From NCBI GenBank assembly GCA_020356065.1, contig CP070632.1, positions 354,321 to 418,320 of the forward strand: a stretch of 64,000 bases of DNA, given 5' to 3'. Source of the stretch: Nitrospiraceae bacterium. Its GTDB lineage: Bacteria; Nitrospirota; Thermodesulfovibrionia; UBA6902. Of the stretch, positions 7,362 to 25,356 are shown piece after piece. The notes under the pieces were generated by a model. It saw only the letters and a program-made list of their open reading frames with translations, searched no databases and was not told the origin of the DNA. A program made the position numbers and the translations under genes. The stretch's first letter is position 1; each line of letters opens with the position of its first letter.

Positions 7362-10352
7362 CTACTCGTTCAGGAATTTATTTAATACCTGCTGGTTGAA
7401 GGCGGGCAAACGATTCTTTCCTTCAGATACTGTTGTTGATACAGATGATTTATTACCATATGAATAATACATTAAACCAATAATTACAAATAAGACAAAA
7501 CCTGCAGATATGTAGGACCTCGTTTTCTTCAGGAGCCTGTTTACCTTAGCATAAACAGAATCACTGTCCTCCTGTACTCTGTCTGACTCCATTACAGATT
7601 CATTTATATAATCACTCACATACATGTGCTCTTTTTTAACTCCTGTATCTGTATCAACGATGAAAATACCTCCATCTGTCCCAGTCGGTACTGTCTCTTG
7701 TGTATTGTGAGTAAACCCGGTGCGCACTGTTGATTCTTCGACACATGGGATGAAATTATGATCGTCATGGTCATCAGCAGGTGTTTCGACTGCATTCCTG
7801 CTTCCGGACAGGATTATCTCATTCAGCTTTTCCTTTGCTTCTTCAACTTTTTCTTTCACTTCCTTATCAATCCTTGTCATTAACTCTTTTTCCACTCTGG
7901 CCCTTACATTCTCTTCAACTCTCCTTCGTATCTCTTCTTCTCTCCTTCTGACTTCTTCTTCCATCTTAATTTTCACTTCTTTTATTCTTCTCCCCACTGC
8001 TTCTTCTACCTGAGTATTTGCATCATCAACTTTTTCCCGAACCTCCTGTTCCATCTGTACTATTATGTCCTCTTCTCGCTTCCTGACGTCCTCATCCACC
8101 TTCCTCCTGACCTCTTCTGCCCTCTTCATCACTTCATTTTCCACTTTGACCACAAGCTCTGCATGTACTCTTTCTCTCATATCCTCTTCAAGTCTTATTC
8201 TAAAGGCCTCTTCACTTTGCCTGACTTCTTTCTCCAGGTTTTCCTTTATCTGTTTAACTCTTTCACTGACCTCCTTTTCCACATTCGCCTTTACTTCATC
8301 CACACGTTTTTTCACGTTCTCCTCTGCTACAGCCCTCATTTCGTCTTCTTTACGACTGATCTCGTCCTGTGCCTCTATCATTGCTCTTTCCTTTGCCTGA
8401 TCGCTGAGCTCTATTTCTCTCTTTTTTACCTCTTCTTCCACTCTTACCAGGACTTCTCCTTCCATTCTTTTTCGGGCTTCTGCCTCTCTCTTCTGTATAA
8501 CCTCTTCTGCTTTCTCCCATATCTCTTTTTCAATCTGTTTAATCTCTTCTTCCACTTTCGTCCTTACATCCGCAACCCCCTCTCTCACCGCATCTTCTGA
8601 CTTCGCTTTTACCGTTTCCACATTTCTTCTTACCTCTGCTTCTGCTTCTGCTCTTATTTCCTCCTCTCTCTGCCTGATTTCTTCTTCTACTTTTGCTCTC
8701 CCATCTTCTTCCATCCTTTTCCGCAGCTCTTCCTCCCGCTTTCTCATTTCCTCTTCAACCCGTGCATTGACCTCGGCTTCCACGTCCTCTCGTATCTTCT
8801 GCTCTTGCTGTTTGACCTCCTCCTCCGCTCTATGAGCCGCCTCCGCCTCTATTTTCTCCCTTGCTGCGGCTTCCCGGCGCTGTATCTCCTCTTCTGCTTT
8901 CGCCTTTATTTCTTCTTCCAGCCTGACACGCTCCCCATCCATCCTTGCCTGCAGCTCTTCCTCCCGCTTTCTCATTTCCTCTTCAACCCGTGCATTGACC
9001 TCGGCTTCCACGTCCCCTCGTATCGTCTGCTCTTGCTGTTTGACCTCCTCCTCCGCTCTATGAGCCGCCTCCGCCTCAATTTTCTCCCTTGCTGCAGCTT
9101 CCCGGCGCTGTATCTCCTCTTCTGCTTTCGCCTTTATTTCTTCTTCCAGCTGACTCCTTATTTCTTTTTCTCTCTTTAAAACTTCCTTCTCAATCGCAGC
9201 CTTTATCTCAGCTTCATTCATTTGAGCATTGTTATCAGTTATTCCTGTATTCACGGGGGATTCCTGAATATCGATTTTTTCCTTTAAATCATCATTCTTA
9301 TGCAATATCGCTTCGGTGTCGTCAGCAGCTGATTCACCCGGTACTTCAAAAAGAATTTCCATCGGCAGCTTTTCGTGAGCCTCATCATCACCTGTTACAT
9401 AAATGAGCCCTGTACTCAACAGGGCAATAATTGTCATGCGGGTCTCATTCTTGTTGGACGATGCGAGTGACAGTATTTTTGCAAACGAATTAACACCATC
9501 GATATAGGAGAGAATATGTTTATCAGAATTGCTAAGTGTCAAGGACTTGAATATTGGCATTGGATTTTCAGATATATTGAATACCGTCGAAAGAGGCGGG
9601 CACATTTTTTCAATTAACGCAATATTACTAATTTTCTTGACGCCCTTGTATACAAGCTTTGCCGAGCTGACCTGGAGGATTATCGACTCATCTGCAGGCA
9701 ACGATCCTTCCTTAAAATCGAACGTCCCATTTTCAATATTAAACAGGCCTGTAATTATATCTTCAACCTGATACTTGACTGACCTGATAAGGTCATTCTG
9801 CTTCAGGAAACCAAGGCTGACCAGAACTTTTCCGAGTCTTTCTCCTTTCTCTGAAGCGCGCTCAGCTGCCTGCCTGAGTTGCTCGTGAGTAATCTTTTTG
9901 CGATGTATGAGTAATTGGCCCAGCCGATCGTCAAGATCAGATGAATCAGCAAATATATTGTCCCCATTGCTGATAAAAATCCTTTTTTTTACTGAACCGC
10001 TTTTTATCTCGAGAATTCCTGTCTTCTTATTCTTATTGATACCAATGAGAATATCTGCAAGTCTGAAATGATTCAGATTCCCCTTGAGATTGCCGAGTCT
10101 TTTAAATCCTGCTTTCAGATGAAATCCAACATGCTCTGTCCATACGGCTTCTGCTTTTAATTCAATTTCAGTACCGAGAATTTTTATATCAACCTGTGAC
10201 CCTTTTACCAGTGCTGGTTCATATTTTATGATTATGCTGATACCGTCTGAATAGTCCAGTACCTTACCCTTTATAACTTTAGATTCGAATGTTACTTCAC
10301 ACTCGGAGTCGATCGTGTACCTTTTAAATTTTCTTTTTTCCTGTCCGTTCAT
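7362..10352 (-). CDS. PilZ + DUF4388 protein with very long charged coiled coil and C-terminal membrane helix
   Basis: The 996-aa product begins with a PilZ-like domain (about 1-90; the RKFKRY region resembles the c-di-GMP-binding RxxxR). A DUF4388-type region follows (about 90-330; KKTGILEIKSG, ISNGDNIFA, DDRLGQLLIHRKKI). Residues about 380-850 are an almost uninterrupted E/K/R-rich coiled coil. Within it, 66 residues (402-467) are repeated at 478-543 with two changes. A single transmembrane helix near 947-966 follows, with a short tail. DUF4388 proteins commonly accompany gliding or polarity regulators, so a c-di-GMP-responsive scaffold tethered to the membrane by its C-terminus is a reasonable inference. 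Function is not established. Confidence 0.8.
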   Translation of the reverse strand: MNGQEKRKFKRYTIDSECEVTFESKVIKGKVLDYSDGISIIIKYEPALVKGSQVDIKILGTEIELKAEAVWTEHVGFHLKAGFKRLGNLKGNLNHFRLADILIGINKNKKTGILEIKSGSVKKRIFISNGDNIFADSSDLDDRLGQLLIHRKKITHEQLRQAAERASEKGERLGKVLVSLGFLKQNDLIRSVKYQVEDIITGLFNIENGTFDFKEGSLPADESIILQVSSAKLVYKGVKKISNIALIEKMCPPLSTVFNISENPMPIFKSLTLSNSDKHILSYIDGVNSFAKILSLASSNKNETRMTIIALLSTGLIYVTGDDEAHEKLPMEILFEVPGESAADDTEAILHKNDDLKEKIDIQESPVNTGITDNNAQMNEAEIKAAIEKEVLKREKEIRSQLEEEIKAKAEEEIQRREAAAREKIEAEAAHRAEEEVKQQEQTIRGDVEAEVNARVEEEMRKREEELQARMDGERVRLEEEIKAKAEEEIQRREAAAREKIEAEAAHRAEEEVKQQEQKIREDVEAEVNARVEEEMRKREEELRKRMEEDGRAKVEEEIRQREEEIRAEAEAEVRRNVETVKAKSEDAVREGVADVRTKVEEEIKQIEKEIWEKAEEVIQKREAEARKRMEGEVLVRVEEEVKKREIELSDQAKERAMIEAQDEISRKEDEMRAVAEENVKKRVDEVKANVEKEVSERVKQIKENLEKEVRQSEEAFRIRLEEDMRERVHAELVVKVENEVMKRAEEVRRKVDEDVRKREEDIIVQMEQEVREKVDDANTQVEEAVGRRIKEVKIKMEEEVRRREEEIRRRVEENVRARVEKELMTRIDKEVKEKVEEAKEKLNEIILSGSRNAVETPADDHDDHNFIPCVEESTVRTGFTHNTQETVPTGTDGGIFIVDTDTGVKKEHMYVSDYINESVMESDRVQEDSDSVYAKVNRLLKKTRSYISAGFVLFVIIGLMYYSYGNKSSVSTTVSEGKNRLPAFNQQVLNKFLNE
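8724..9149 (-). repeat. Near-identical tandem duplication inside the coiled-coil gene
   Basis: Two 198-bp copies (8952-9149 and 8724-8921), offset by 228 bp, encode the same 66 residues with only two amino-acid differences (Thr/Lys and Gly/Glu). The DNA is almost identical, including synonymous positions, which points to a recent duplication or gene conversion rather than selection on the heptad pattern alone. The rest of the coiled coil is clearly diverged. Confidence 0.85.
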
Positions 10353-10731: not shown

Positions 10732-12501
10732 CTAATCCTCGTGGGATGAAGCAAGGTGAGCATATTTGAGGGTTGTTTTTAAACTTTTGTGCCCTAAAAT
10801 CTTCATTACTTTATTGATCTCCACCCCTTCCATAATAAGACGAGATGCAAACGTATGACGTAAATCGCGGAAATGGAAATTTTTTATGTTAGACCTTCTG
10901 CGTGCATTTGCGAATGATTTTGAAATATTCCGGTACGGTTTACCCGTCGTATTGTTATAAAACACATAGGGGACATCTTGACGCCTTGAAATATTTATGA
11001 GAGTATATTTCAGGATGTCGTTGATTGGTATCATTCTTTCACTTTTTCCTTCCTTGTCCAGCACGATGCATCCATGATCAATGTCTACATTTTCCCATTT
11101 CAGATTGAGCAGTTCAATTTTTTTCATCCCGGTATTCAGTGCTGTGATAACGATTGATTTAAGGGGAGGTTCACAGGAATTGATAAGTTGTTCGCATTCT
11201 TCTTTTGAAAGATACCTCGGCATCATGCTGTCATCACGAAGAACATGTACCTTTTCTACATTCCCCGTATCATCTGACTCAATCGAATTATTATCAGCAT
11301 GTAATCTTTTTTTAATTGATCGTTTCCTCTGAATAATCAGCAGTTGAAAAATTACTATACATATCAACGGACCCGACAAGATAAGAAAATGCTTCCTGTT
11401 CTTAAGGTTCATGCTTATCATTCCTACATTGCTTTTTTCTGTTTCTGTATTGTTGTCAACAGCATTGATCGATGCAGATTCTGTTGACGCAGCGTAATGA
11501 GTTAAGTTTTCATCTCTGAAGAAAGGATTCTTGTCTTTTCCGTCATAAACTTTGAAACTGATAGCTTTAAGAAGTGCAAATCTTAATTCAGACCAGTAAT
11601 CATATGCCATTGCCGGGTCTGAAGATGGGAGTTCTACTGTATACGTCGGAATTTTTCTCTCTTTTCCGGCATAGTTGCCTATTGATCCGGGAAAGAAACG
11701 AAAGTCCACGAGTTTTAGAAGATTATTTGAATTGGCTTCAATGTTTAATCCCAAGAACTTTGCCCGCTGCTCTACACGAATTAGATTGTTATATTTCTGA
11801 TCACCAGGCCCGTCAAAATCTAGAAAACCCAAAGGTGCATGAATAGTAATAATTTTATCTGGCCGGTATTTATTGACCAGATAGGTTTGCAGTCTGCTTT
11901 CAGGCTCTGAACCTGCTTTTGCACCCGGATATTTTCTCGGATCTTTCTTATATTCAATCCATACTTTTTGTGCTAACTGATCCCAGTCTCTCGTGGGAAG
12001 GTTTCTGTTAGGATCCACACCATTGGCATTATGTCTGGTGTTTGCAAAAAAACCTTCAGGATTTACTATGGGAGCTATAACCAATCTGAGATCCTCGAAT
12101 TCCTGTGGATTGTCAAAAAGAATCTCTCTGACTAAATGAAAGCAAATATATATGCTCGAAGGTTCATCTCCGTGAACACCGCATAAAAGCAGATTCACAG
12201 GACTGTTGTTATTGGTATCATTAAAACCAAATTCCTGGTATAAAAGAGGATATCCCTTAGAAGAGTAATTGAATGTTGTCCAACGGTCCTGGTTACATAT
12301 GATTTCATTCCATCCAAATTGCAGAAACTTATAATTGACAGCATCACAAAAATTTCTTTTTATATGCTCCTTTGGAAGTGAACCCATTGCCGTGTTTCCT
12401 GGCAGAGCAAAGAAAACCATGATAAAGGATAATAAGAAAAAATATGTAAATCTGCATTTTGTTCTGCCTGTTGTCATTCTGCTTCTCTGTAAAAAGATCA
12501 A
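10732..12501 (-). CDS. M14 zinc carboxypeptidase fused to a tyrosine-recombinase-like domain
   Basis: 589 aa with two unrelated halves. Residues 15-40 look like a signal peptide. Residues about 55-330 form an M14 peptidase with Zn ligands H110/E113 (GVHGDEPSS) and H221, substrate motif GVDPNRNLP and catalytic Glu290 (TVELPS), as in murein-peptide amidases. A helix at about 371-389 then leads to a basic stretch and a tyrosine-recombinase catalytic domain (about 425-589). The second Arg548 (RDLRHTFAS), His571 (LGHKS) and nucleophile Tyr580 (KYAHL) are present. The first catalytic Arg is Lys460 (NTGMKKIELL), and the HxxR His is Arg545. No frameshift separates the halves. The topology would put peptidase outside and recombinase inside. 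It starts 14 bp after the M15 peptidase gene. Confidence 0.8.
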   Translation of the reverse strand: MIFLQRSRMTTGRTKCRFTYFFLLSFIMVFFALPGNTAMGSLPKEHIKRNFCDAVNYKFLQFGWNEIICNQDRWTTFNYSSKGYPLLYQEFGFNDTNNNSPVNLLLCGVHGDEPSSIYICFHLVREILFDNPQEFEDLRLVIAPIVNPEGFFANTRHNANGVDPNRNLPTRDWDQLAQKVWIEYKKDPRKYPGAKAGSEPESRLQTYLVNKYRPDKIITIHAPLGFLDFDGPGDQKYNNLIRVEQRAKFLGLNIEANSNNLLKLVDFRFFPGSIGNYAGKERKIPTYTVELPSSDPAMAYDYWSELRFALLKAISFKVYDGKDKNPFFRDENLTHYAASTESASINAVDNNTETEKSNVGMISMNLKNRKHFLILSGPLICIVIFQLLIIQRKRSIKKRLHADNNSIESDDTGNVEKVHVLRDDSMMPRYLSKEECEQLINSCEPPLKSIVITALNTGMKKIELLNLKWENVDIDHGCIVLDKEGKSERMIPINDILKYTLINISRRQDVPYVFYNNTTGKPYRNISKSFANARRRSNIKNFHFRDLRHTFASRLIMEGVEINKVMKILGHKSLKTTLKYAHLASSHED

Positions 12502-14789: not shown

Positions 14790-15004
14790 TCCTTTTTTAA
14801 ATTTTGTCTAATATACTAAAAGCAATGTATGTGCCAGGGCGCTGGGTGAGAAATCTGAATTTAAAATCAGGATGTTAGAAGTGGCAAGGAATTTTGCGTA
14901 CTGTGTCCGCAGGCATTTTGGCACAAGTATAAGTGTGCCACGTCTCAGTATCTACTCTCTTATCAATAACTTAAATAATTAAAGATCCCCTCCCCCGGCC
15001 CACG

Positions 15005-15190
15005 TTATTCATAAATATTTGAGCCATTGGAGGTAAGCCTTAAAAAAGTTTTAAATACGGCGCAAAGCATGGGGACATGATCAATCTAAGCAATTAAACA
15101 GCATTCAAAGTGTATGCTAATGTTCTGCCGTGAAAGCCGCTCCCAAAACTTTTTTAAGGCTTACCTCCATGGCTGTGTGAATAATATGAG
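15005..15190. repeat. Cruciform element A (28-bp stem, 92-nt loop)
   Basis: The arms at 15024-15052 and 15145-15172 are complementary over 28 bp with one bulged base; their shared core is GGAGGTAAGCCTTAAAAAAG. The loop 15053-15144 is 92 nt. The outer left flank TTATTCATAAATATTTGAG matches that of element B (19554-19572) with one difference, in the same orientation. The loop matches the loop of B only after reverse complementing: 65 of 92 positions by hand count, no gaps. A non-autonomous mobile or invertible element is inferred. Confidence 0.8.
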
Positions 15191-15302
15191 CCAGCTCCTC
15201 TCGGAGCAGATCCCGGTTCGGGTCTCTGATAGGGGTTGTATCAACTTCACGCAGAATCGCTTCGACTCTGGGAAAGAGGGGTAATCGTAAAATATTATTC
15301 AA
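15117..15302 (-). CDS. Doubtful 61-aa reading frame running into element A
   Basis: A TTG directly after the stop of the DUF4382 gene opens a 61-aa frame. Its first two thirds (PRVEAILREV, DPNRDLLREELAHIIH) look protein-like, while the last third is encoded by the right arm and loop of repeat element A. It may be the remnant of an older gene into which the element inserted, or chance. No family was recognised and no ribosome binding site is obvious. Confidence 0.2.
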   Translation of the reverse strand: MNNILRLPLFPRVEAILREVDTTPIRDPNRDLLREELAHIIHTAMEVSLKKVLGAAFTAEH

Positions 15303-16379
15303 TCAAACATCATCACCTGCCTCTTCCGCTTCCTCGACCTCAACCTCTTCGGCAATGTAGTGTTCGCCATTATAATCGTTCAGCTTGACCTTAACAAACG
15401 CATCCTTTTCCAGGTTACCCTCAACTTCAGCATTCTTATAATCTACGATTATGGTCTTGTTAGGTTGATACAATAATGAAAATATACTTTTAATAATATC
15501 AAGCTTTGAAACCGTTCCTTCCATTTTCAGGTAAATACCAGAAGCAATAACAGGCCCCTGATTAAAGTCAATACTCATACTCTTCACGATAACTTCCAGG
15601 TTATCTGATTTTGCAAGGTTAAGAAGGTTTTCAATATCTTCCTTTTCCACATCAGCGTACGATACAATTAAATCCCCGCTCCCCGTCGTTAATGTAAATT
15701 CTTTCTTTTCACTGCCCACAGCGGTAACATAACCGGATATGGCTTTTTTATATCCGTTTTCATGTTTCTTATCAACATCGGACTTATTAAGCGGAGAAAC
15801 TTTAATTGTCACAGAGCACCCTGATATATCGTCATTCACCACTTCAAACTTCTTGAGATCAAAGTCAAGGACAACATCCTCGGTCTTATTTTGCACTACT
15901 TTTACATTTCCGTTCATGTCCATAAAACAGTTTGTCTCATTTTCTTTTTCAATACATTGAAGAATATTGGGATTGTCATGCTGATCCTTGTGGGATGTGA
16001 ACCGGCAGGGAACATCTTCATCAAGCTGATTTGTTAACATTACATCCTGGGAAAATTCAATATGAATTCTGTTATAGTTTCCGGTTCTGCAATTATTGAC
16101 ATCCAGGAACTGAATCGTGGAAGAAAGGTCCGTGATATCCAGATCCTCCGGATTATAAAATTCACACACAGTGTCTGTTCCTGTATGTAACAGCTGAACA
16201 CCATTAATTGTTACCTCGACATGTTTGTAGTCTGCCGTTATATCATCGGTAACATAGAGAGCCACATTTCCCGTAGAGGAACGATCACCTGTACTCCCGC
16301 TGTCACCGCATGATATCCGCAGTACAGAACCCGATAGAAGAATCGAAATGCCACATAAAATGTATATGATTTTCTTCAT
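15303..16379 (-). CDS. Exported DUF4382-type protein
   Basis: 358 aa. An N-terminal signal (about 1-24) ends in RISCGDSGS, close to but not a perfect lipobox, so a lipoprotein is possible. Residues about 35-180 (ALYVTDDITADYKHVEVTI, NYNRIHIEF) fit the DUF4382 family of envelope or extracellular proteins. About 185-340 contains two repeats of a small beta domain (ISGYVTAVGSEKKEFTL, then VEGNLEKDAFVKVKL) like DUF5666. The C-terminus is strongly acidic. Biochemical function is unknown. Upstream is a 370-bp region with remains of the broken regulator. Confidence 0.7.
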   Translation of the reverse strand: MKKIIYILCGISILLSGSVLRISCGDSGSTGDRSSTGNVALYVTDDITADYKHVEVTINGVQLLHTGTDTVCEFYNPEDLDITDLSSTIQFLDVNNCRTGNYNRIHIEFSQDVMLTNQLDEDVPCRFTSHKDQHDNPNILQCIEKENETNCFMDMNGNVKVVQNKTEDVVLDFDLKKFEVVNDDISGCSVTIKVSPLNKSDVDKKHENGYKKAISGYVTAVGSEKKEFTLTTGSGDLIVSYADVEKEDIENLLNLAKSDNLEVIVKSMSIDFNQGPVIASGIYLKMEGTVSKLDIIKSIFSLLYQPNKTIIVDYKNAEVEGNLEKDAFVKVKLNDYNGEHYIAEEVEVEEAEEAGDDV

Positions 16380-16579
16380 CTCCTTACTCCTTTATTTAAG
16401 TGATTTTTACAAACACAATGATAATACAATACCCCTTTATGGAGTACAATACCGTGATTGATCCATTAGCCGTACCTGTCGACACAGTTTATCTGGAAAA
16501 GCAGGTGCGAAGCAATTATAAAGAACATTGATAAACATTCAGGAATGATAGAAGAAGATACAAAAATCCATATGGAATT

Positions 16580-17889
16580 ATGAACGATATTACTGCCGGA
16601 CAGAATGAACTGGGAAATGAAGATATGAATAATGAAGATATGAATGTTGATCTCAAAAAAATTATGAGAATGAGGTAAAGGCTTCATTTATTGACAATCT
16701 GACCGGTTTATTCAATCATGGTTTTTTTCAACTGGCACTGGACCTGGAGATGAAGAGGTCCCGTAGATGTGGAAAGCCATTTACCCTTGCCCTGATCGAT
16801 GTTGATTCGTTCGCATTTTACAACAGGCAAAATGGTCCCGCCAAAGCCGACAGGACCTTAAAGGAAATAGCCGATATCATAAAAAAGAACGTCCGTGATG
16901 TAGATGTGGCAGCGAGATATTCGGGAGAAGCATTTGCCATAATTCTCACTGAATGCACGCCAGGAGATGCAGCCCATGTTATGGAAAGAATCAGACAGGA
17001 TGTAGAACTGCGCGAAGGGGAACATACGACAATAAGCATCGGAATTGCCGATTATCCTGCTTCTGCTGATATAAAAGAGACCTTTCTCAGGAAAGCAGAA
17101 GAGACTCTGGACAAAGCCAAGATTCTAGGGAAAAACAGAGTAACCATCTTCAGGAAAGAGGAGTATCAGCTCTGTGATCATGCCCCGCGGATATTGATAG
17201 TTGATGATGAACCAAAGAATATAAAATTGCTGGAAGCCTTTCTTATCCCCTTTAACTATGAACTGTTAAAGGCCGAAAATGGTGAAGATGCATTGACGAT
17301 TATTGACAGAACACAGGTAGATCTGGTGCTGCTGGATGTCATGATGCCTATTATGGACGGTTACGAAGTATGCCGCCGTATCAAGGCAACTGACACCACT
17401 CGCATGATCCCGGTCATAATGGTAACGGCTTTGGATGATACAGATGCCAGATTAAAGGCTATTGAGATGGGTGCTGATGATTTTATCACCAAACCGCCCA
17501 ACAGAGTTGAGCTGCAGGCCAGGGTAAAATCACTGGTAAAAGTAAAATTACTCAACAACACGTTGACCAGCCTTGAGAGCGTACTGTTCTCCCTCGCAAA
17601 CACGGTTGAGGCCAAAGATGAATATACCAGTGGACATACATTGAGAGTTTCGGATTTGGCAGTTGCGCTTGGGAAAAAGCTGGATCTGCCTCATACTGAT
17701 ATTAACGCAATTAAAATCGGGGGCATCATTCATGACGTTGGCAAAATCGGGGTGCCCAAGTCCATTATAAATAAGCCAGGACAACTGGATCCCGAGGAAT
17801 TCAAGATCATGCAGTCCCATCCTTATATCGGGTATAAGATATGCATGCCATCCCAACTCCTCATGATCTCTTTATATCAGGTGTTCTGA
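16580..17889 (+). pseudogene. Broken GGDEF-REC-HD-GYP regulator
   Basis: The frame from ATG 16750 lacks the start of its GGDEF domain. That start is encoded immediately upstream in the same frame (NLTGLFNHGFFQLALDLE) without a usable start codon. The preceding frame from ATG 16580 runs into the A7 run at 16655-16661 (CTC AAA AAA ATT) and stops at 16678; a -1 shift at the run restores a continuous protein. Signs of still earlier breaks go back to about 16454. The GGDEF site is SGEAF (residues 58-62 from 16750), so diguanylate cyclase activity is unlikely. A receiver with Asp196 follows. The HD-GYP domain keeps HD (328-329) but ends after about 80 residues, losing the GYP half. Decay is favoured over programmed frameshifting. 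Confidence 0.7.
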
Positions 17890-17938
17890 GATACTCCTGA
17901 TACAGGTTTAATTCCCTGCGGATAAATAGAGATACCCT

Positions 17939-19291
17939 CTACTTACATTTTACTGTGGTAACCGTATCAACCCCTTCTATTCCTTTACCATCGATGGTTT
18001 CCCCTATTAAATAAGCTTCTGTATCACCGCACATTATGCCCGTATCATGAGTTTTGAAGTGTAATACAAGATCGGGAAGTCCATCCTCATTTATATCTTC
18101 ATAGTGACCTTTACCATGAGATTCTTTGGCTCCATCTGATTCAAACACCATGGACTCTGATCCAAACCTGATAGTCAGCGGGGCTATGGTAGTGACATCA
18201 CAATTGTTTGAGTTCAGAACAGCAACAGGGATTACACCCTTTGAACGGGGGTTTATCGTATTTTCCAGGCTGTCAGGTTTAATATCTATATACACGGGTA
18301 AACACTTCGTCTCTGTGAATTCTGTAAAAATCTGCACATGATTCTGGCTTACATCAGTAATATAGATATCCCCAAATCCGTCAATCGCTACTCCCGCAGG
18401 ATAAATGAACTGACCGTCCTTGTATCCAAAGGAGCCCCACATCATCAAGAAATTACCATCGGTATCAAATTTCTGAATTCTATAGTTTAATGAATCTGCC
18501 ACATATACTTCTCCCTGCCTGTTCACGGTAATTCCAGAGGGTGAAAAGAAATGCCCCTCCCTGTTGCCGCCAAAACCCCATTTAGTGATAAACTTATTGT
18601 TTGCATCAAACTTTTGAATTCGGTTGTTATTTTTCTCAGACACAAAGACATTCCCCTTGTTATCAACAGCTATACCAAAGGGATGAATGAACTGACCGTC
18701 ATCTGCACCATACGTTCCCCATGAGGTTATAAAGACGCCATCTGCATCAAACTTCTGAATGCGATGATTATAGCGGTCAACGACATAGACGTCATCAACG
18801 CTGTCTATTGCTATTCCGACAGGATTTGCGAACTGACCATCACCAGAACCATAGGATCCCCATGTGGTTAAAAAGATGCCGTCTGCATCAAATTTCTGAA
18901 CACGATGATTATGGAGATCAATTACATAGACGTCATCATAGCTGTCTAATGCTATTGCAACAGGATTTGCGAACTGACCATCACCAGAACCATAGGATCC
19001 CCATTTGGTCATAAAGTTGCCATCTGGATCGAATTTCTGAACACGGGAATTACGTTGATCAACTATATAAATATTGGCCCTGCTATCAAATGCTACGTTC
19101 CAGGGCCCGTTAAAATGACCATCACCTGAACCGGTCTGCCCCCATTTTGCAACGAAGTCCGGTATATCTGCTCCATAGACATGACCGCACATTACCGTTG
19201 TTATAAGAAGCATTCCGATTATGAGATACAAGATAACCAATGCAATATTCTTTTTTGAACAGGCCGTATACGTTCTCAGAATTAATGTCAT
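17939..19291 (-). CDS. Exported NHL-repeat beta-propeller protein
   Basis: 450 aa. A hydrophobic signal lies at about 16-40, then six NHL units (about 45-330) of the form W-G-x-x-G-x-x-x-G-Q-F-x-x-P-x-G-I-A-V-D ... V-x-D-x-x-N-x-R-I-Q-K-F-D. These suffice for one six-bladed propeller. The C-terminal 120 residues form a separate domain (YIDIKPDSLENTINPRSKG, INEDGLPDLVLHF, DTEAYLIGET) seen attached to other secreted repeat proteins, with a calcium-site-like Asp/Asn cluster. Strong DNA similarity between blades 1-3 indicates recent internal amplification. It is likely a secreted or surface binding protein; the ligand is unknown. Confidence 0.85.
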   Translation of the reverse strand: MTLILRTYTACSKKNIALVILYLIIGMLLITTVMCGHVYGADIPDFVAKWGQTGSGDGHFNGPWNVAFDSRANIYIVDQRNSRVQKFDPDGNFMTKWGSYGSGDGQFANPVAIALDSYDDVYVIDLHNHRVQKFDADGIFLTTWGSYGSGDGQFANPVGIAIDSVDDVYVVDRYNHRIQKFDADGVFITSWGTYGADDGQFIHPFGIAVDNKGNVFVSEKNNNRIQKFDANNKFITKWGFGGNREGHFFSPSGITVNRQGEVYVADSLNYRIQKFDTDGNFLMMWGSFGYKDGQFIYPAGVAIDGFGDIYITDVSQNHVQIFTEFTETKCLPVYIDIKPDSLENTINPRSKGVIPVAVLNSNNCDVTTIAPLTIRFGSESMVFESDGAKESHGKGHYEDINEDGLPDLVLHFKTHDTGIMCGDTEAYLIGETIDGKGIEGVDTVTTVKCK

Positions 19292-19553
19292 TTGCCTATC
19301 CTCCTTTTTTCAAGATCGCACCAATAAAGCAATCTCTATTATCTCAATTATGTAAAGGATCTCCAGTAATGTATAAAACACAGTAACCTCCAGGGCAATG
19401 TCTGTCCTTACTCTATTGTCTTACAGGCATGTCAGGAATAACTGTGATTAGGGACACAAATATTTTTATCCATTATGTGTATTGAAAGGCGCAGAAAAAA
19501 ATATGTTTATGTTGCAGAAAGGAGATATGGGCCCTTGATATATCTACCCCGTA

Positions 19554-19735
19554 TTATTCATAAATAATTGAGTCATGGGGGGAGGCTTTAAAAAAGTTTT
19601 GGGATCGGCTATCACAGCAGAACGTGAGCATATTCTTTAAGCGTTGATGTTATGAAAATATTGATGATATCCTCTTGCATTGCACCGTATTCAAAACTTT
19701 TTTAAAGCCTCCCCCCATGACTGTGCATAATATGG
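19554..19735. repeat. Cruciform element B (30-bp perfect stem, 92-nt loop)
   Basis: The arms 19571-19600 and 19693-19722 are perfectly complementary over 30 bp (core GGGGGGAGGCTTTAAAAAAG). The loop 19601-19692 is 92 nt, the same length as in element A, and matches A's loop only in reverse complement. The outer flanks match those of A in direct orientation. It sits in the 600-bp gap 19292-19890, which otherwise holds only a solo repeat arm. Confidence 0.85.
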
Positions 19736-19804
19736 GTTAAAAAACATCCGAAATATTCGCAATCCAATTTTTATATCGAGAATCCGTCCCCTTATGAAAA
19801 AACT

Positions 19805-19838
19805 CTGGATTCCCGCTCAACAGACTGCGGGAATGACA
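19805..19838. repeat. Solo arm of the GTCATTCCCG-type repeat
   Basis: CTGGATTCCCGCTCAACAGA continues to GCGGGAATGACAA. It matches the right arm of the palindrome nested in the element at 8-162, but no good left arm is present. Likely a degenerate copy. Confidence 0.55.
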
Positions 19839-19890
19839 AACAAAGGAGTATATGATGATCCCGATGCAGAGCATCGAGGAATTCTTTTGA

Positions 19891-21285
19891 TTAAAATGAT
19901 AACAGGTATTCAGCAAGATTAATGTTGTATTTGTGAGGATCGAGTGTTTTTAGAATACTCTTTGCATATTCCCCTGACTGGTCTCTTTCTGCAAGGTCAA
20001 CGGTAAACCCATCGACTTTTTCTCCGGATCTGTCGACAATAATCAGGACCTTTGGCCTGTCGGTATATTTCGTATTACTTTCGCAGACAATGCCCATCTC
20101 TCCTGAATCAAGAAGAACCAATGAACCTGCAGGGTACAATCCAACCATGTGGATAAACAGATTAAGCAGACGCGGATCATAGGAGTGTGATGTTTCCATC
20201 ATCTTGCGGACTGCTTCATCAGGTGAAAGGGGAATCCTCTGGTACACCCTCGAAGAAGTCATTGCATCATAACGGTCGGCAATAGTGACAATATTTGAGT
20301 ACACGTCCAGCGCCATAGGGTGCCTTATTTCCGGATAACCTGAATGCTTGCTGCTCATATGGTGTTCCATGGAAACTATGGCATTAGATATTATTGAATT
20401 GTCAGGTTCTTTCAGCCTCAGCAATGAAAGCGCCCCTAAATAGGGGTGTGTCTTCATCACCTTCCACTCTTCTTCCGTAAAGTCAGAAGGCTTGTTCAGA
20501 ATTTCGCTCGGAATGGCAGTCTTGCCAATATCATGGAAAAGAGCCGCAAAACCTAATTCCACAAGGGCCTTACGTTTTAATCCAATCCTCTGGCCCATCG
20601 AGATTGAAAGGACACTGACATTCACACTGTGATGATAGGTATATTCATCAAACTCTTTAATTGCGCTTAAGCCGAAGAGCAGCTGTTCTTCATTAAAAAG
20701 AGCATCGACAATTGTTCCAACGACTCTCTTTGCCGATTTAACACTGACATTTTCTTTGGACTCCACTTTAGACATAAGCCCTTTTACAAAAGATACGGCA
20801 TTAAAGTAAGACCTTATAACTGTCCTCCTTCTGTCGTTTTCTTCTTCCCTGATGTATTTCAATCTATCCACTTCGATACTCTGTATATTCTTGAGGGATA
20901 CTTTTAATGACTCAAAAGGATCATCCTGATATGCTGCATCGGTAAATATCTTAAGGAACTCTTTAACATCATCCATGCCGAGTTGAGAGATGAAAGCGAC
21001 ACTCCCTAGATCCCTTCTGACAAATTCCTTCGCGAGGTCATCAAGGATAATTGAAGACTTCGAAGAAAATTTTACCCTTGTATTATTCAGATAGAATAGA
21101 TCACCTATCAGGTCTATTTTCTGGATTCCATCATGTTCGATAAGCGGATTCATGAGGTTAAGAAATACCTCAATTGAACTTATCACAACAGCATTATCAA
21201 TATCATGGAATTGACCCTGTTTAAGAACAATTGCAAGTTTCTTCAGAACATCTTCGATAATGATATCGTCTGCTTTTTCATTCAT
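19891..21285 (-). CDS. HD-GYP domain phosphodiesterase with novel N-terminal module
   Basis: 464 aa, cytosolic. The C-terminal half is a complete HD-GYP domain: HHSVNVS (218-219), FHDIGK (His251-Asp252), EHH (308-309), GYP (316-318) and the downstream DRYDAMTSSRVYQ block. This predicts cleavage of c-di-GMP or a related dinucleotide. The N-terminal 200 residues are not a known sensor domain but resemble the N-terminus of the adjacent HEAT-repeat protein (VAFISQLGMDDVKEFLKIF here, LTFIKGIPRDEVGDFLKIL there). The start overlaps the end of that gene by 8 bp, so the two are cotranscribed and probably act together. Confidence 0.88.
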   Translation of the reverse strand: MNEKADDIIIEDVLKKLAIVLKQGQFHDIDNAVVISSIEVFLNLMNPLIEHDGIQKIDLIGDLFYLNNTRVKFSSKSSIILDDLAKEFVRRDLGSVAFISQLGMDDVKEFLKIFTDAAYQDDPFESLKVSLKNIQSIEVDRLKYIREEENDRRRTVIRSYFNAVSFVKGLMSKVESKENVSVKSAKRVVGTIVDALFNEEQLLFGLSAIKEFDEYTYHHSVNVSVLSISMGQRIGLKRKALVELGFAALFHDIGKTAIPSEILNKPSDFTEEEWKVMKTHPYLGALSLLRLKEPDNSIISNAIVSMEHHMSSKHSGYPEIRHPMALDVYSNIVTIADRYDAMTSSRVYQRIPLSPDEAVRKMMETSHSYDPRLLNLFIHMVGLYPAGSLVLLDSGEMGIVCESNTKYTDRPKVLIIVDRSGEKVDGFTVDLAERDQSGEYAKSILKTLDPHKYNINLAEYLLSF

Positions 21286-24937: not shown

Positions 24938-24976
24938 TTATCCCGTATTCTACCCCACAATATTCAGGAATAAATT

Positions 24977-25128
24977 AAGTAAAGCAGGTTTGCCAGAAAA
25001 ACGAATTTGGAGTGGCAATACCTGATCAATCGTTAAAAAAAAATATATATGAACAAACTATATATGCTTTTGTTTTATAAATGCATCATATTCATTTAAT
25101 TCGTTTTTCTGGCAAACCTGCTTTACTT
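24977..25128. repeat. Element C: 31-bp perfect inverted repeat
   Basis: The arms 24977-25007 and 25098-25128 are perfectly complementary (31 bp; core GTAAAGCAGGTTTGCCAGAA) around a 90-nt AT-rich loop. Just outside lie TATTCAGGAATAA and TTCATGAATAAT, recalling the TTATTCATAAATA flank of elements A and B. The stem and loop sequences are unrelated to A and B. The remaining gap to 25356 holds nothing recognisable. Confidence 0.8.
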
Positions 25129-25356
25129 CATGAATAATCATAGCTAGTAATCAATATGAATTCCCGTCAACTGCTGGACATTCAGGCTCATAGCAAATAT
25201 TGATCTTAAGCATCCGCCTTCTGAATTCACCGAAATCACAATACACACATCATATTGCAGCTTATCAAATCATGATACCCTGCATAAAAAAAGACGTTAC
25301 TGAATTGTCAGGAAATTATTGAGGGGGTCTATCCGGATCCAGAAACAAAGACGGTA

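Follow-up and report, generated by a model that had tools for sequence, protein, structure and literature searches.

We found that a family of small hairpin elements, represented by elements A and B in the 64,000-nt stretch of DNA analysed here (the window), carries its central loop in two orientations relative to its own outer ends. The loop lies backwards in about 40% of the scored copies from three related genomes, its orientation is unrelated to loop sequence, and the two arms of each copy have been homogenised. These elements are transposase-less IS1380-type hairpin MITEs, the loops of which have probably been flipped and the arms made alike by template switching or by recombination between the arms.

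Elements A and B

Element A (copy L016) spans positions 14999-15190 of the window and element B (copy L001) positions 19548-19736, neither being assigned to a strand. The 92-nt loops described in the earlier note stand, but alignment with other copies places the true ends of both hairpins slightly outside those first drawn. The arms of A (15028-15052, plus strand, and 15145-15169, minus strand) pair perfectly over 25 bp, or over about 29 bp if one interruption is allowed, and those of B (19571-19601, plus, and 19692-19722, minus) pair perfectly over 31 bp. Both loops are bounded by ...GTTTT/AAAAC... arm junctions. The loop of A (15053-15144, minus strand) has its G-end, GGGAGCGGC, on the right, the minus strand being the G-strand, and the loop of B (19601-19692, plus strand; 92 nt by the boundary rule of A) has it on the left. 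The outer ends follow the same order in both elements, with a LONG end on the left (CCCACGTTATTCATAAATATTTGAGCC in A) and a SHORT end on the right (reverse complement CTCATATTATTCACACAGCC in A). Accordingly scored, A is in state SHORT, its loop G-end adjoining the SHORT outer end, and B is in state LONG. The 4-mers flanking A are CCGG on the left and CCAG on the right, alike at three of four positions. When folded as single-stranded DNA, both elements are far more stable than their shuffles (z -7.4 for A and -8.6 for B).

With one loop reverse-complemented, A and B agree at 65 of 92 positions, against 21 of 92 in direct orientation; in 20,000 shuffles the agreement averaged 23.2 positions and never exceeded 40. 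The left flanks (TTATTCATAAATATTTGAG and TTATTCATAAATAATTGAG) are identical at 18 of 19 positions in direct orientation, and the right flanks are also alike in that orientation. The observation that first drew attention to this pair, loops alike only when inverted between flanks that are directly alike, is thus confirmed.

Other repeats lie in the same window. Immediately to the right of B, at 19774-19900, is a dispersed repeat (CTGGATTCCCGCTCAACAGACTGCGGGAATGACAAA) with many copies in the two sister genomes introduced below. Two 213-nt near-tandem copies, 97% identical, occupy 8710-9150 within a long repetitive region, and an inverted-repeat element at 8-162 has 24-nt arms that are 88% complementary, TAGAACCTATCTCAAAA ends and an inner CCCGACTCGATCGGGA hairpin.

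A family of IS1380-type MITEs

The window belongs to the genome of an uncultured Nitrospirota bacterium of the class Thermodesulfovibrionia (G000; 3.17 Mb in a single contig). A whole-genome search found about 29 copies of the A/B family there, and about 24 and 8 scorable copies are present in two fragmented genomes of the same genus, G001 and G002 (public records CALZMZ and CALZJD; Thermodesulfovibrionia, Nitrospirota). The small mobile family suspected from A and B alone therefore exists, and extends to two sister species. No copies were found in G003, a third genome of the genus, and one old copy, L048, resides in another genus of the family. When the arm-gap-arm pattern was searched across 84,980 genomes, the A/B loop was restricted to Thermodesulfovibrionia among the 80 matches listed; the other matches among these 80 are unrelated chance hairpins and were rejected as family members.

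A complete copy consists of a 4-bp target duplication, an outer end, an arm, the loop, the inverted arm and the other outer end. The consensus arm, ATGGAGGTAAGCCTTAAAAAAGTTTT, is about 30 bp long and nearly perfect. The loop is conserved, measures 90-92 nt, starts with GGGAGCGGC and finishes with GCGCCGTATTC, and may stand in either orientation. The subterminal outer ends are distinguishable as SHORT (CCCACATTATTCACACAGCC) or LONG (CCCACATTATTCATAAATATTTGAGCC), and differ in both length and sequence in nearly all copies. Symmetric flanks are thus ruled out, and the asymmetry noticed in A and B was kept once more copies were aligned. One copy in G001 (L117, contig C13 near 31693) is a near-perfect palindrome with two SHORT ends and symmetrical flanking bases (CCAGCCCGGATTATTCACACGGCCAGGGGAGG...), as if arm conversion had extended through the whole element. 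Genus g14 of the same taxonomic family has further hairpin MITEs, which bear TTAACCCACATTATTCATAAA ends but differ in their inner arms (L047, L049, L053, L057, L061 and L065).

The copies have the features of a MITE: they are about 190-200 bp long, number about 29 in G000, lack coding capacity and end in terminal inverted repeats (CCCACATTATTCA-like on both sides). Of 43 scorable copies, 14 have the same 4-mer on either side (mean 4.0 and maximum 11 in 5000 shuffles), with YTAR as the 4-bp target duplication consensus. Moreover, locus L046 of a relative (G023) has the same left end, a right end TGAATAAAGTGGG and, between them, the remnant of an IS1380 transposase, which matches PF13701 (E=3e-66) and, under the curated cut-off, NF033539 (E=5e-47). 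From the shared ends, the 4-bp target duplications and the DDE transposase of this relative, the A/B family is, as judged by sequence, a non-autonomous IS1380-type MITE. The same inverted ends, 4-bp duplication and DDE transposase speak against the IS200/IS605-like, Y1 hairpin-processing element that the earlier note had considered, elements of that type having neither inverted ends nor a target duplication. No match to the PF13701 profile was found in G000-G003, nor any match to the L046 protein in the carrier genomes, possibly because the source was lost or lies in a masked stretch. A resident source of transposase defines a currently mobile MITE rather than a MITE as such, and the A/B family is probably now stranded.

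The loop occurs in both orientations

Each copy was scored by which of its two outer ends, LONG or SHORT, lies next to the loop G-end. LONG:SHORT counts were 13:16 in G000, 8:16 in G001 and 0:8 in G002, some truncated copies included, and 12:14, 7:12 and 0:7 when only full loops were counted. Orientation is therefore not fixed, and the inversion relative to the flanks proposed for one pair recurs in a large share of the collected copies.

State shows no association with loop lineage. Nearest neighbours in loop sequence shared their state at a rate of 0.58 in G000 (0.48 when shuffled, p=0.22) and 0.60 in G001 (0.52, p=0.34). On a 52-copy loop tree, parsimony required 17 state changes against 15.7 with shuffled labels; the loop trees are weakly resolved, and such counts do not give the number of inversions. 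In addition, near-identical loops are found in opposite states (L071/L075, 93.5%; L059/L070, 91.3%). Since state is unrelated to loop sequence, a fixed orientation, two simple subfamilies and insertion in opposite directions are all inadequate, and we rejected two fixed-orientation subfamilies as a full account. The LONG copies L009, L013 and L072 are flanked by identical 4-bp target duplications, so each was inserted as a single unit, and such copies argue against exchange between copies. A safe lower bound is one inversion in each of three lineages, namely type I loops, type II loops and family C described below. As a point against the mechanism favoured below, the arms of flipped copies are better by a small margin only (p=0.09), and the divergence of these copies is hardly greater (p=0.07).

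Arms are homogenised within copies

The arms co-evolve within each copy. Arm identity was 0.895 within copies and 0.804 between copies in G000, and 0.942 and 0.839 in G001; none of 5000 permutations reached these differences in either genome. A gapped permutation test was used, as gapless alignment inflates the counts of shared changes when the lengths of A runs shift the frame. Private changes are found in both arms of single copies, for example GGAGGAGG in L063 and AAACAAG in L077.

A second hairpin family, family C (copies among L255-L269), has the outer ends of A/B and a common loop start, GGAGCGGC, with unrelated arms. Nearly all its copies are in G000. Its member in the window (L232/L263; 24954-25143, no strand assigned) is the third hairpin MITE there with IS1380-type ends. 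This copy is in state LONG and has a 90-nt loop, flanking 4-mers CTAC and CTAG, and arms at 24974-25007 and 25098-25131 that are 97% complementary over 34 bp and unlike those of A and B. Across the family we scored five LONG copies, eight clear SHORT copies and three weak calls.

The arms of family C carry markers of the side on which they lie. SHORT-state copies usually have TATGCCGG...GAATT by the G-end and CATACCGT...GTATT by the other end. Three LONG copies have arms that are internal recombinants of these markers: L264 has the SHORT end plus TATGCC followed by GTAAAAACGTATT, and L262 and L266 have the LONG end plus CGTAC or CACACC followed by GAAAAACGA. Conversion of the arms is complete in L263, the copy in the window. 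Exchange thus appears to have taken place inside the arms, at points that differ between copies, as read from a small set of copies.

Orthologous sites and gene context

The sole orthologous insertion pair found, L006 in G000 and L043 in G001, has flanks about 83% identical and is LONG in both genomes; no site was seen in both states in this one comparison. For A and B, neither empty-site nor opposite-state orthologues were found: the context to the left of A is conserved in G002, with homology ending 50 bp before A, and the gene to the right of B is conserved in G003, with homology ending at the gene. L003 and L106 were considered as orthologues in opposite directions, as one flank is common and the elements are reversed, but the distances differ and they are probably separate insertions.

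The earlier note had also suggested a switch. A search of A and B for sigma-70-like promoters found none within the elements. The loop gave neither a consensus RNA structure nor covariation, nor any Rfam family above cut-off (a single match, to a plant miRNA, is attributable to chance). A functional RNA in the loop was rejected on these RNA results, and a regulatory switch function is unsupported.

There is a suggestive association between gene context and state. Copies between convergent genes are SHORT in 14 of 16 cases (2 LONG:14 SHORT), and copies in other contexts are 17:17 (Fisher p=0.013; genome-stratified p=0.005, from crude gene calls and with a test chosen after seeing the data). The signal comes from G000 (p=0.005) and is absent in G001. 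We regard this association only as a lead, which would fit an effect of transcription on template switching (PMC8604942). It is conceivable, if doubtful, that inversion is ongoing in resident copies and depends on transcription through the element or on fork direction, each copy being a reversible recorder of transcription at its site. In that case, copies between convergent genes would keep the ancestral state and the others would approach an even mixture.

How the loop may be inverted

Template switching between short inverted repeats in yeast coding genes makes the arms identical and inverts the spacer, reversibly (PMC8604942). Arm homogenisation together with spacer inversion is this published signature, and it favours template switching or recombination for the MITEs. 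A replication or repair polymerase would switch from one arm onto the inverted copy of that arm, traverse the loop backwards and return to its original template within the other arm; alternatively, a crossover would take place between the two arms. Either event would leave the 92-nt loop inverted relative to the outer ends and the two arms identical. No dedicated enzyme would be needed. Because the inversion would be reversible, old copies would drift to an even mixture of orientations. We suppose that it takes place in resident copies and is neutral, a neutral by-product of hairpin instability being the default. Points against template switching or arm recombination are that no site was seen in both states, L006 and L043 being alike, and that the 92-nt loop is far longer than the inverted spacers of yeast coding genes, which are short and involve 2-5 bp of change (PMC8604942), though inversions in chloroplasts reach 164 bp.

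The same chemistry need not recur in residents. A few inversions may have occurred in master copies, with both forms then multiplied by the transposase; we consider this possible, though clearly less probable than repeated flipping. The star-like relations of the copies and the weakly resolved loop phylogeny would suit it, the parsimony result (17 against 15.7) being unable to decide. The shared state of L006 and L043 in two species and the single state of all eight scorable G002 copies also agree with it. However, flips must have occurred separately in at least three lineages (the type I loops of G000, the type II loops of G001 and family C), in none of which does state depend on loop sequence, and the breakpoints inside the arms differ among the LONG copies of family C.

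It is rather unlikely that the loop flips during the IS1380-type transposition cycle, for example in an excised intermediate, and not in resident copies. Constancy of state at the L006/L043 site and the intact target duplications that LONG copies may bear are compatible with such timing. Against it, private changes that appear in both arms of a unique copy imply that one arm was copied into the other while the element was resident, and the flipped share is highest in G000, which has the oldest copies, and zero in G002, although this is a trend only.

An inverton, a phase switch in which the arms would be recognition sites for a serine or tyrosine recombinase that inverts the loop, appears very improbable. 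The elements do match its geometry, as inverton inverted repeats measure 10-40 nt (PMC11892184) and the arms here, 25-31 bp long, enclose only a short segment; the association of state with gene context in G000 also speaks for it. A tyrosine-recombinase domain (PF00589) is encoded 2.5 kb from A, without any tie to the arms. It forms the C-terminal part of a 589-aa ORF (10732-12501, minus strand) that also contains a zinc-carboxypeptidase-like domain (PF00246), an unusual fusion. Nevertheless, two families with unrelated arms both flip, and the points of recombination inside the arms of family C are variable, where a single core would be expected of a site-specific enzyme. Furthermore, A and B contain no promoter-like site, and the copies are dispersed and many of them decayed. 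Finally, joining of the loop in the wrong orientation at assembly can practically be discarded: hairpins are hard to assemble and two of the three genomes are fragmented, but arms of 30 bp are shorter than ordinary reads, which anchor the loop to its flank, and mixed states occur in both element families and in two assemblies that were made independently, of which one is a single contig.

Comparison with known systems

Loop flipping of this kind has been described mainly in plant chloroplasts and in yeast, and these hairpin MITEs apparently provide a clean instance of it in a bacterium. Spacer inversion is usually inferred from single sites, and some 60 mobile hairpin copies with recognisable ends would allow the frequency of loop flipping, the extent of arm-to-arm copying and the effect of transcription or replication direction to be measured. 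The internal orientation of a palindromic MITE is, moreover, an unreliable marker of insertion direction or subfamily.

In the published literature, we found no matching description of hairpin-bearing IS1380 MITEs or of bacterial loop inversion. The A/B family resembles IS1380-family insertion sequences and derived MITEs (DDE_Tnp_1_4/NF033539) in its CCCACATTATTCA ends, common with L046, and in its short target duplication. It differs from the insertion sequences in lacking a transposase gene, in its internal hairpin and invertible loop, and in that no transposase of that family was found in the carrier genomes. Like invertons, it has a short stretch of DNA that is flanked by inverted repeats within the 10-40 nt range and occurs in two orientations. 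Unlike them, it is a dispersed multicopy MITE with no linked enzyme, promoter or regulated gene and with variable recombination points inside the arms.

The likeness to template switching at short inverted repeats (the Ripley model; quasipalindrome correction) is closer, as arms become identical and the spacer is inverted reversibly. The extent of template switching is affected by transcription and replication direction (PMC8604942). Here, unlike in the yeast cases, the spacer measures 92 nt instead of a few bases, the arms are parts of a multicopy MITE in a bacterial host, and inversion events are deduced from the comparison of copies. Small chloroplast inversions also affect non-coding hairpins, occur in both loop orientations and show no phylogenetic signal. 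Such non-coding inversions are common in chloroplasts; in Styrax, the loops measure 4-164 bp and the stems 6-28 bp, sizes that overlap with ours (PMC8893999). Comparisons in chloroplasts are made between plants at one orthologous site at a time, whereas the MITEs described here provide dozens of dispersed copies.
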